This document shows, piece by piece, positions 24,510-28,448 of a stretch of 39,920 nucleotides of DNA (positions within the stretch are counted from its first letter, which is position 1; each line of letters begins with the position of its first letter). The stretch lies in assembly GCA_002695065.1 (NCBI GenBank), contig NZNW01000022.1, positions 1 through 39,920 of the forward strand. Direction: 5' to 3'. This stretch comes from Salinicola sp. Lineage in GTDB: Bacteria > Pseudomonadota > Gammaproteobacteria > Pseudomonadales > Halomonadaceae. The notes beneath the pieces were generated by a model. The model was not told the origin of the DNA. It worked only from the letters and a program-made list of their open reading frames with translations, and did not search any database. Made by a program: the position numbers and the translations under genes.

Positions 24510-24977
24510 TCAGTGAGTCGTGGCGGGCTTCACGTCCAGGATTTCCACCTCGAAGGTCAGGGTACGCCCTGCCAGCGGATGATTGAAGTCGACCTCGACA
24601 TGGCGTTCGTCGACGCTGGCGATCACGCCGGGCAGTTCGCCGCCGGCGGCATCGGCGAATGACATCACCGTGCCGGGTTCCACGGCCTCCTCGAAGGCGT
24701 CACGGGCGAGGCGCTGGACGTTCTGAGGGTTGTGCTGGCCGAAAGCGTGCTCAGGGGAGATCTCGAAGGCACCGGTATCGCCCGCCGCCATGCCCTTGAG
24801 CGGCGCCTCGAACCCCGGCGGCAGATTGCCGTCGCCGAGCTGGAACGTCGCTGGCTGCTTGTCCCGCGTCGAGTCCACCACCTCGCCATCCTCGAGTTTC
24901 ACCGTGAAGTGCAGCGTGACTTCCATGCCGTCGCCGACGCGGTAGTCGTGATCGTGCTGGTGGCCGTTCCCGCTCAT
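24510..24977 (-). CDS. fkpB: FKBP-type peptidyl-prolyl cis-trans isomerase, FkpB/SlpA type
   Basis: 155-residue cytoplasmic FKBP/SlyD-like isomerase. Core motifs: [18 protein letters not shown], then GFEAPLKGM and PEHAFGQ at the insert-in-flap domain, and [18 protein letters not shown] near the end. A His-rich N-terminus (HQHDHD) could bind metal. The start overlaps the lspA stop by four bases (ATGA), with GAGG 6 bases upstream. Confidence 0.93.
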
Positions 24978-25606
24978 GAGTCACCTCGGGTCGAAGAAGA
25001 GTCAGTCGAAGAAGATTTGTCAGCCGAAGAAGACCTGTCAGCCGAACCAGGGTTGTCAGTCGAAGAAGGTCCGTCCTTGTCGGCGGCGTGAGAGCCCTTA
25101 GGTCGACGCGAGTCGAGCAGCGACTGCAGAATCAGGCCGATCGCACCCAGCGTGATCGCCGTATCGGCCAGATTGAACGCCGGGTAGTACCAGCCGCCCC
25201 AGTGAAACGACAGATAGTCGACCACGTAGCCGTGCACCAGTCGATCGTAGAGATTGCCGATGGCACCGCCGATCACCAGCGTCAGCGAGATCGCGGTGAG
25301 CGTCTCGCCGCGTTTCAGTCTCGACAGCCACACGGTCAGACCGATACTCGCACCGATGGCGATGAGCGCGAACAGCCAGCGCTGCCAGCCCGCGTGCTCG
25401 GCCAGGAAACTGAAGGCGGCACCGGTGTTGTGCAGCAGCGTCAGGTTGAAGATCGGCAGCACTTCCAGCGGCCGACCGTAATCGAGATGCGCCGAGGCCA
25501 GCGCCTTGATGCCCAGATCGAGCACGATGACCACCAGCGATAGCCACAGCCATCGCAGCGGGCGGTGCATCCGATCGGTGGCGGGGCGGGAAGCGGAATC
25601 AGGCAA
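24974..25606 (-). CDS. lspA: Lipoprotein signal peptidase (signal peptidase II) with repetitive C-terminal tail
   Basis: 210-residue inner-membrane aspartyl protease that cleaves signal peptides of diacylated lipoproteins such as BamD in this window. There are four membrane helices, and the catalytic Asp pair is in NLYDRLVHG and FNLADTAI. I chose TTG 25606: GAGG lies 8 bases upstream, it overlaps the ileS stop, and the resulting MPDSASRP start resembles pseudomonad LspA. ATG 25570 is the alternative. The usual family length is about 165. Here about 45 extra residues follow the last helix, mostly a tandem hydrophilic repeat. Confidence 0.93.
24989..25075 (-). repeat. 18-bp tandem repeat encoding a D-x-S-S-S-(A/T) tail of LspA
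   Basis: In the LspA frame GAC codons recur exactly every 18 bases (25075, 25057, 25039, 25021, 25003). They give units [24 protein letters not shown] and a partial DSSST. The units differ mainly at positions 2-4. Confidence 0.85.
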
Positions 25607-28448
25607 AACGGCGTACCTCACCCGGGCCATCCGGCAGGTTGGCGATGGAACGCGCCGACAGCGTCGGATGATCGGGATTGGCGCCGACGTCCGGCCGCCG
25701 TTCCCAACTGCGCTCGTCCTTCTCATACGGACTCATGCGCACCGCGACCTTGAGACCCTCCAGCTCGGTGGCCCTGGCATCGCCCGCTTCCGCCAGCGGC
25801 GCGAGCGTGGCTTCGGAAGTGATCAGCACGAAGCGCAGTTCGTCCTCGAAGCGGGACAGCAGCGCATTCAAGGTGTCATCGACGTAGAGCGTCACCTCGC
25901 TGTCCAGCGCGCCCTTGATGGTGCCGGCGTTGCGCGCATCCTCGAGCTGCTTGTTGACCGCCTGCTTGACCGCGATCACCTGTTCCCAGAACTGCCGCCC
26001 CATCTCGGCATTTTCAGGCAGCTGGCTCAGCCCGTCGTAATAGGTCTCGAGATGCACGCTCTCGCCCCGCTCGCCGGGAATGTTCTCGTAGATCTCCTCG
26101 GCGGTGAACGACAGGATCGGCGCGACCCAGCGCGCCAGCGCCTCGACGATATGATAGAGCGCGGTCTGGCAGCTGCGGCGCGCCAGCGAATCGGGCTGGG
26201 TGGTGTACTGGCGATCCTTGATGATATCGAGATAGAAACCGCCCATGTCGCGGGCACAGAAGTCGTGCACCTGCTGGTAGACGTCGCGGAATCGATAGTC
26301 GGCATAGGCCTGCTGGATGCGCGCCTGCAGCTCGGCGGCGCGATCCACCGCCCAGCGATCCAGCGCCAGCATGTCGCCGAAGGCCACGGCGTCGCGACCC
26401 GGCTCGAAGCCGGTCAGGTTGCCGAGCAGGAAGCGCGAGGTGTTGCGGATCCGCCGATAGACATCGGCGGTGCGCTTGAGGATCTCGTCGGAGACCGCCA
26501 TCTCGCCGGAGTAGTCGGTGGAAGCGACCCACAGCCGCAGGATATCGGCGCCCAGCTTGTCCATCACCTGCTGCGGCGCGACCACGTTGCCCAGCGACTT
26601 GGACATCTTGCGGCCCTTCTCGTCGACGGTGAAACCGTGGGTCAGCAGCGACTGGTAGGGCGGATGGCCGTCGATGGCGCAGCCGGTCAGCAGCGACGAA
26701 TGGAACCAGCCACGATGCTGGTCCGAGCCCTCGAGATAGAGATCCGCACGCGGCCCGACGTCGTGGCCGAGCGGATGTGAACCGCGCAGCACGTGCCAGT
26801 GGGTGGTGCCGGAATCGAACCAGACGTCGAGAGTGTCGGTGACCTTCTCGTAGGCGTCGGCCTCGTCGCCCAGCAGCTCGCTCGGCTCGAGCTTGAACCA
26901 GGCTTCGATGCCCTCCTGCTCGACGCGGCTTGCCACCGCCTCCATCAGCTCGACGGTGCGCGGATGCAGCTCGCCGCTCGCCTTGTCGAGGAAGAACGGG
27001 ATCGGCACCCCCCAGTTGCGCTGGCGCGAGATGCACCAGTCGGGGCGGTTGGCGATCATCGAGTGCAGACGCGCCTGGCCCCAGGCGGGGATGAAGCCGG
27101 TGGTGTCCACGCCGGCCAACGCCTTGTCGCGCAGTGTGCGGCCATCGGCGCCCTCGAGATCCATGCCCACGAACCACTGGGCCGTGGCCCGGTAGATGAC
27201 CGGCGTCTTGTGGCGCCAGCAGTGCATGTAGCTGTGGGTGATCCGGTCGTGGGCCATCAGCGCGCCGGCTTCTTCCAGCTTGGCGACGATCTGCGGGTTC
27301 GCCTTCCAGATCATCTGGTCGCCGAACAGTGGCAGATCGTCGGCATAGACGCCGTTGCTCTGCACCGGATTGAGAATCTCGTCGAAGCTCATGCCGTAGG
27401 CACGGCAGGTGTGGAAGTCATCCTCGCCGTAGGCGGGCGAGGAGTGAACGATACCGGTACCGGCGCCCAGTTCGACGTAGTCGGCCAGATAGATCGGCGA
27501 GAGCCGGTCGTAGCCGCTCGCGAGCGCCGCCAGCGGATGGCGGAAGGCGATGCGATCGAGACGTTCGCCCGGAGCGGTGGCGATGATCTCGCCGCTCAGG
27601 CCGAAGCGTTCCAGGCTCGATTCGACCAGCTCCTCGGCCAGCAGCAGCAGACGCTCGCCGGTGTCGACCAGGGCGTAGACGAACTCGGGGTGCACGTTCA
27701 TCGCCTGGTTGGCCGGGATGGTCCACGGCGTGGTGGTCCAGATCACCGCCGCCGCCGGCTTGGCCAGCGAATCCAGTCCGAAGGCCGCCGCCAGCGCGGC
27801 ATCGTCGACCGCCGGAAAGGCGACGTCGATGGCGTCGGACTGCTTGTCCTGGTACTCGACCTCGGCTTCGGCCAGCGCCGAGCCGCAGTCGAAGCACCAG
27901 TTGACCGGCTTGAGTCCCTTGAACACGTAGCCGCCCTTGACCATCTCGGCCAGGGCCCGGATCTCGCCCGCCTCGTTGGCGAAATTCATGGTCAGGTAGG
28001 GATTGTCCCAGTCGCCCTGGACACCAAGACGCACGAAGCCTTCCTTCTGCACCTCGACCTGGGCGGCCGCGTACTCGCGGCAGAGCGCCCGGGCCTCGTC
28101 CGCCGGCAGGTGCTTGCCGTGGGTGGTCTCGACCTTGTGCTCGATCGGCAGCCCGTGACAGTCCCAGCCCGGCACGTAGGGGGCGTCGAAGCCGGCCAGG
28201 TTCTTCGACCTGACGATGAAGTCCTTGAGCAGCTTGTTGACCGCATGACCGATATGAATGCTGCCGTTGGCGTAGGGAGGACCGTCGTGGAGCACGAACC
28301 GCTCGCGCCCCCGACGCGCCTCACGCAGCTTGGCGTAGAGGTTCATATCGTTCCACTGCGCGATTCGACCGGGCTCCCGCGCCGGCAGGTTGCCGCGCAT
28401 GGGGAAGTCGGTCGAGGGCAGATTCAGCGTGTGCTTATAGTCGCTCAT
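25599..28448 (-). CDS. ileS: Isoleucyl-tRNA synthetase with a cysteine-less C-terminal zinc-ribbon remnant
   Basis: 949-residue class I aminoacyl-tRNA synthetase charging tRNA-Ile, with an editing (CP1) domain. The HIGH motif is at 65-68 (GSIHIGH) and KMSKS near residue 614. E. coli IleS ends in a zinc-binding peptide with CPRC and CGRC, its ligands 20 residues apart. Here the aligned positions read D911-E-R-S914 and S931-A-R-S934, with the same spacing and conserved flanks (W, DVG, and the terminal RRFA against RKFA). All four Cys are absent. The gene lies between ribF and lspA as in most gammaproteobacteria and overlaps the lspA start. Confidence 0.97.

Follow-up and report, generated by a model that had tools for sequence, protein, structure and literature searches.

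According to an excerpt of PMC4861432, which cites Glasfeld 1996, aminoacylation by type 1 isoleucyl-tRNA synthetase (IleRS) requires its C-terminal zinc peptide. The ileS gene of a Salinicola sp. raises the question of what becomes of this module when none of its cysteine ligands remains. The window, i.e., the whole stretch of DNA analyzed (39,920 nucleotides), carries ileS with ribF on one side and lspA-fkpB-ispH on the other, and the nearest named record to it (88%) is Salinicola halophilus. The encoded enzyme is a type 1 bacterial IleRS. It matched the IleS equivalog model TIGR00392 with 895 bits (cut-off, 621), its best structural matches were 1qu2, 8wnf, and 8c9e, and it scored 840 and 738 bits with the type 1 structures 8c9e and 1ffy, respectively, versus 309 bits with the type 2 structure 8c9d. 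A type 2 (eukaryote-like) identity was rejected, as the protein scored closer to type 1 sequences.

The original prediction held that all four Cys of the C-terminal ribbon were replaced with their spacing kept, and the alignment bore this out. D911, S914, S931, and S934 align to the Cys columns of the intact rows (37 rows, with 32 from Halomonadaceae and 5 from the outgroup, plus 98 class-level rows), and the window tail is homologous to intact tails with the ligand spacing unchanged (Table 1). There is no shifted Cys set in the tail; residues 906 to 949 contain no Cys, and H927 is the sole His. All 74 rows of the family set have R913, V921, G922, R933, and N937; residue 920 is D in 70 of them and E in 4, and W915 is present in every row of the ligand-column alignment. 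The solved type 1 enzyme of P. megaterium reads EKCERCW...LCTRC, and that of S. aureus reads EKCERCW in the alignment. The profile PF06827 (zf-FPG_IleRS; family cut-off, 21.3 bits) gave no match in the window protein at E values up to 0.1. In a search of 30 genomes, it scored 33 to 43 bits on 13 intact IleS tails, 28.2 bits on a tail reading CSCC at the four ligand positions, and a subthreshold 14.3 to 17.6 bits on six CSCS tails; no IleS tail from the seven four-loss genomes was among the matches listed, which extended to an E value of about 0.86. The window IleS has neither the four Cys of zf-FPG_IleRS nor the C-terminal Cys4 motif. This motif is a usual feature of type 1 IleRS and not its whole definition, and the remainder of the window enzyme is type 1.

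Table 1. Features of the ileS gene and its Cys-free tail, in window positions
Feature	Position	Strand	Basis
ileS, type 1 isoleucyl-tRNA synthetase, 949 aa	25599..28448	-	Translation, genome search, TIGR00392
C-terminal part, residues about 826-949, ancestry in part of the family unlike that of the enzyme body	25602..25973	-	Trees, identity profiles
Cys-free ribbon tail, residues 906-949	25602..25733	-	pN/pS 0.075, 17 Salinicola genes; Cys scan
D911 = Cys1 position, codon GAC	25716..25718	-	Sequence, alignment
S914 = Cys2 position, codon AGT	25707..25709	-	Sequence, alignment
E916-R917, in place of His-His after RCW	25698..25703	-	Alignment
S931 = Cys3 position, codon TCG	25656..25658	-	Sequence, alignment
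S934 = Cys4 position, codon TCC	25647..25649	-	Sequence, alignment

We searched 275 Halomonadaceae genomes for the IleS tail, obtained a match in 269, and then read the high scorers and controls. Depleted tails were present in at least 46 of the 275 genomes, a count that includes the frameshifted assembly G013, in which the letters DERSWE and SARS are visible. This is a lower bound because G033 is CSCS at 59.9 bits, below a gap at 75 bits that is not a clean divider. Across genera, the ligand positions form a graded series of CCCC, CSCC, CSCS, CSTS/CSSS, and DSSS. CSCC was found in G034; CSCS in ten Vreelandella-group genomes, Halotalea and one congener, G033, G178, and G179; CSTS in G174 and G176; CSSS in G023; and DSSS in Salinicola, in 8 of 10 genomes of the Kushneria-like genus g15, and in G025. 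The genomes searched included 17 Salinicola congeners, and all 17 full Salinicola proteins that were read carry the D/S/S/S pattern. Among 110 IleS proteins from 30 genomes and 80 named contigs, with some overlap, 20 were DSSS, 3 were CSCS, and 87 were CCCC. The predicted replacement of all four Cys thus stands for Salinicola; as one event it does not, since three-, two-, and one-Cys forms exist.

One Salinicola assembly (G013, L178; a single contig) has an ileS broken by frameshifts, probably assembly errors, with the knuckle letters still visible. Such frameshifts are what a sequencing or assembly artifact would draw on, and this explanation is hardly credible for the pattern as a whole: it is clade-wide, the 17 other Salinicola proteins and further states of the series agree in independent assemblies, and the same codons show synonymous variation.

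The intact motif prevails elsewhere. Among the 223 other Halomonadaceae genomes with an IleS tail match, all 69 that were read (29 plus 40 lower-scoring ones) were CCCC, and Chromohalobacter sarecensis (L051) has an intact Cys4. At the order level, the cut-off was reached by 62 of 390 genomes; of these, 44 lay outside the family, none of them above 60 bits, and 12 of 12 tails read from order members outside the family were CCCC. At the class level, 106 of 114 genomes had an IleS at the cut-off, and the 100 tails read, a number that excludes the window itself and five genes ending before the tail, comprised 98 CCCC and two variants, G663 (0.4 Mb; CSCS) and G692 (CSDS). The latter (G692:C2:66665-66823, L415) comes from a gammaproteobacterium that is the only representative of its order among the genomes searched; because its family is unrelated and H916 is retained, it looks like an independent loss. 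CSCS was found in 3/3 genomes of 0.3 to 0.4 Mb from one other family (G663, G759, and G760), which, judging by size and kinship, are probably the insect symbionts Evansia and Portiera. Both are described as insect symbionts grouped with Halomonadaceae (excerpt of PMC4122945), and ages given for the Portiera lineage reach 111 Myr (excerpt of PMC7821994). By its IleS body, G663 is placed with G034, a CSCC genome (support, 96; long branch). Adaptation to a halophilic life as such, which had been offered as a reason for the loss, is not favored, as the 69 Halomonadaceae genomes keep Cys4 and CSCS also occurs in the symbiont-like genomes.

The tail is under strong purifying selection and is not decaying. 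In 17 Salinicola genes, pN/pS (a sum over pairs, with no correction for multiple hits or kinship) was 0.149 for residues 1 to 825, 0.244 for residues 826 to 905, and 0.075 for residues 906 to 949, with values of 0.015 for knuckle 1 (residues 910 to 922) and 0.032 for knuckle 2 (residues 927 to 938). Residues 911, 912, 914, 916, 931, and 934 are constant in these genes, and the Ser914 codon is AGT in 7 and AGC in 10, with the residues themselves hardly varying. When ligands disappear from an enzyme that is otherwise conserved, a loss of function is usually indicated, and we therefore weighed decay, in which the role of the tail is gone and the ligands have drifted off. This is very improbable. 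It is contradicted by the pN/pS of the tail, which is half the body value, by knuckle values about 5 to 10 times lower, and by one motif kept in 17 Salinicola genes with varied codons. The CSCS tail is also retained in the 0.3- to 0.4-Mb genomes, which supports its use, since unused parts are unlikely to last there. The same constraint argues against a paralogue that relaxes selection, and the proposal of a second ileS fell on both counts: none was found in the genome (96% complete), where six further matches were fragments of other class I synthetases with 23 to 37% identity, and the tail is held more tightly than the body. The lspA reading frame, open to position 25726 (window positions 24974 to 25726, minus strand) and so continuing upstream for 156 bases from its likely start at 25570, overlaps the ileS tail. 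This overlap was rejected as the source of the constraint because synonymous sites vary (pS of 0.46 in the tail and 0.68 in knuckle 1), and it is for this reason unlikely to be coding.

Because the module persists without Cys ligands under strong purifying selection, the best reading is a zinc-less C-terminal FPG/IleRS ribbon of a type 1 IleRS, with the Cys4 replaced stepwise and the ribbon still serving tRNA-Ile. We consider this reading fairly probable, with the order in time, the absence of metal, the retention of the fold, and the charging function as parts that we infer. Polar residues would have taken the Cys places one after another with the spacing unchanged, Cys1 to Asp being the last step, and the change from His-His to Glu-Arg beside Cys2 would have accompanied the loss of Cys2. 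Hydrogen bonds and Arg-Glu/Asp pairs probably do the work of the metal in holding the two hairpins, and the module would keep its usual job of helping IleRS hold tRNA-Ile. The window IleS would then be a zinc-independent (C-) form in which the ligand Cys were replaced while the protein was presumably in use. The earlier idea of a fold kept without metal by polar or ionic contacts gains support from the Cys-free persistence of the module under selection; the ribbon would be metal-free or at least Cys-free. We found no published report of loss of the Cys4 motif within type 1 IleRS in the open-licence literature searched.

Structure prediction gave results that depended on the alignment. With a mixed 50-row alignment, AlphaFold2 modeled residues 901 to 949 at pLDDT 82 to 93 (whole model, 67.2; pTM, 0.51), and with a 4-row alignment of variants only, the pLDDT was 28 to 47 for about residues 907 to 949. 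The low values from variants only indicate that the Cys-bearing rows may be the source of the confident fold. Alignments to type 1 IleRS structures, judged by the first and last aligned residues only, ended at or near residue 942.

The family alignment also bears on the order of ligand loss. Ser914 and Glu916 are present in all 35 variant rows and in 0 of 98 class-level intact rows, and Ser934 is present in 34 of 35. Position 931 is Cys in 16 variant rows, Ser in 17, and Thr in 2; at position 911, 19 of these rows have Cys and 16 have Asp. Since Ser914 is common to all 35 variant rows, Cys2 was probably lost first, together with the change from His to Glu, and the probable order thereafter is Cys4, Cys3, and Cys1. 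The Cys2 and Cys4 positions are likewise Ser in the CSDS tail of G692, which suggests that an essential metal site gives up its ligands in a recurrent order, Cys2 and Cys4 going before Cys1.

Many species keep Cys1 and Cys3 in CSCS forms, and these tails retain the subthreshold PF06827 scores given above, as would fit intermediates that still bind zinc through other ligands, with DSSS alone being zinc-free. We regard this as quite unlikely, and it would cover the intermediates only, as the window tail has no Cys and a single His. Another alternative is that the Cys4 zinc site turned into a hard oxygen-ligand site (Asp911, Glu912/Glu916, and Ser) for Mg2+, Ca2+, or Na+/K+. Each ligand position does hold or adjoin an acidic or hydroxyl residue, and these residues are constant in the 17 Salinicola genes. 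However, in CSCS, CSTS, and CSSS, no more than two or three of the four positions carry an oxygen side chain, and the knuckle 2 acid, E932, is found in 17 of 35 variants and gives way to Ala in all 16 DSSS rows, leaving no acidic ligand set that is constant. A hard-ion site is therefore unlikely.

The metal-free ribbon, our preferred reading, does not follow the ancestry of the enzyme body throughout the family. For residues 1 to 780, a single clade of the 27 variants among 52 rows was rejected (AU p, 1e-9; quick tree, LG+G4). Residues 826 to 949 without the Cys columns placed all 35 variants on one side (SH-aLRT of 95, on few columns and long branches), and with residues 826 to 905 alone, the variants fell in several groups. 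When four Vreelandella-group CSCS genes were compared to eight intact ones, mean identity dropped from 93% in the first 150 columns to 59 to 67% in the last 125, and the neighbors RibF, LspA, and FkpB were 80 to 85% identical in the same comparison. In some Vreelandella, the ancestry of about 115 C-terminal residues conflicts with that of the body and the flanking genes. The ileS bodies of genus g15 (L147 to L151, L156 to L158, L170, and L024) lie in three places of the tree, and their flanking genes form one group (support, 91). Together, these trees and profiles suggest that ileS and its C-terminal part have seemingly been exchanged repeatedly by recombination within Halomonadaceae, although convergence of the knuckle residues is possible and the C-terminal trees rest on 80 to 120 columns. 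Codon identity was 0.39 to 0.72 in all comparisons and yielded no date for a transfer. Differences at residues 842, 849, 876, and 880 were rejected as compensation for the lost ligands; the variants carry the common gammaproteobacterial letters, and it is the intact Halomonas group that changed. In the class survey, this pattern is therefore evidence of ancestry.

We additionally examined the ribosomal proteins L31 and L36. Type A L31 has four Cys, and type B was Cys-free in the 12 variant genomes read, with LDISSASHPFYTG versus LDVCSNCHPFYTG in type A, a Cys-to-Ser change as in IleS. Type B L31 was assigned to 36 of 46 variant genomes versus 16 of the other 223 genomes in which the IleS tail was matched (Fisher p, 3e-23, which ignores kinship); it was read in 12 of the 36 and 1 of the 16, and the remainder were typed by match number and E value. 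A tree of 58 rows gave only 2 to 4 independent contrasts (median sign test p, 1), too few independent origins for a test of association beyond kinship. No type B L31 was found in 9 of 10 variant Vreelandella genomes or in G023. In genus g15, all 10 genomes have by score only type B L31 (5 read, all Cys-free). The only L36 in its four-loss genomes G031, G169, and G173 (L282 to L284) has 41 residues and two Cys, without the first Cys and the His, and two CSTS genomes of g15 have a 37-residue, three-Cys L36. The usual L36 ligand set is C-C-C-H. G000, G004, and G009 retain a four-Cys L31 and a three-Cys L36. No zinc-uptake gene was recognized by eye among the open reading frames near the Salinicola L31B gene. 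In G223, an intact-tail Vreelandella-group genome, a type B L31 that still carries two Cys adjoins a second L36 (G223:C1:434919-435322, L254), resembling a zinc-regulated operon. The L31/L36 pattern hints at zinc sparing, and kinship explains much of the association. A broader account is possible, if somewhat doubtful: a mobile zinc-free allele of the C-terminal module may have arisen near the base of Halomonadaceae and been swapped by short-tract recombination under native ileS bodies, as part of a zinc-sparing remodeling of translation that went furthest in g15. In Vreelandella, the tail would have been swapped in between a native ileS body and a native lspA.

The change is not part of a general loss of zinc ribbons, a possibility that was rejected because each of the 17 variant genomes tested retains one or more PF06827 matches above the cut-off and because of the Cys retained in L31 and L36 of G000, G004, and G009. 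The matching open reading frames have MutM/Nei length (273 to 340 aa; named by length only), with 26.3 bits in G000. Of the 35 variants, 32 retain the Cys/His cluster of the IleS body (C185, C188, C410, and H413), so zinc may still be present elsewhere in the enzyme. Four IleS proteins of genera g7 and g4 (L159, L165, L166, and L177), about 60% identical to that of the window, have S, G, C, and T at these body positions. The tRNA-Ile(GAU) gene was read in 14 of the 30 genomes searched, with Salinicola represented by G004 and the window genome absent. Its acceptor, D, and anticodon arms are identical in the 9 variant and 5 intact genomes and its T-arm differs; no change accompanying that of the tail was seen outside the T-arm in these 14 genomes.

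Within one family, IleS tails thus run in a natural series from four Cys through three, two, and one to none, and the role of zinc in the fold, in tRNA contact, and in the response to zinc supply is therefore testable with natural enzymes. The pattern suggests that a zinc-free module may pass between species, and the label "zinc-binding," transferred from E. coli to such IleRS tails, is probably wrong.

Excerpts of several reports describe comparable systems. Type 2 IleRS (PMC4861432) is also without the C-terminal Cys4 but has other sequence elements, whereas the window enzyme is type 1. In E. coli GluRS, a natural zinc-free pZBD gives activity equal to that of the wild type (PMC4381286). This domain is, like the IleS tail, a zinc-binding, tRNA-side synthetase domain that many bacteria keep ligand-free; however, it belongs to another enzyme and may also be deleted, whereas the IleS tail is constrained more tightly than the body and survives as a graded series. 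The zincless finger of Nei/NEIL1 does the job of a zinc finger with the hairpin retained (PMC3188539 and PMC9266487). It is the counterpart of the Fpg zinc finger, and PF06827 is named for Fpg and IleRS, an analogy drawn without an alignment. The aligned positions in Nei/NEIL1 are highly variable; in contrast, Salinicola IleS has fixed spacing, W915, R913, and R933, and its knuckles hardly vary. Ribosomal protein S4 occurs in C+ and C- forms with reported horizontal transfer (PMC3087516), and S4, L31, and L36 (PMC13343924 and PMC5912738) resemble IleS in that a single translation protein exists in forms with and without zinc. These ribosomal forms are often paralogue pairs or whole-gene transfers, whereas in IleS it was the sole copy that changed, and exchange seems to have involved the C-terminal part of the gene rather than the whole.
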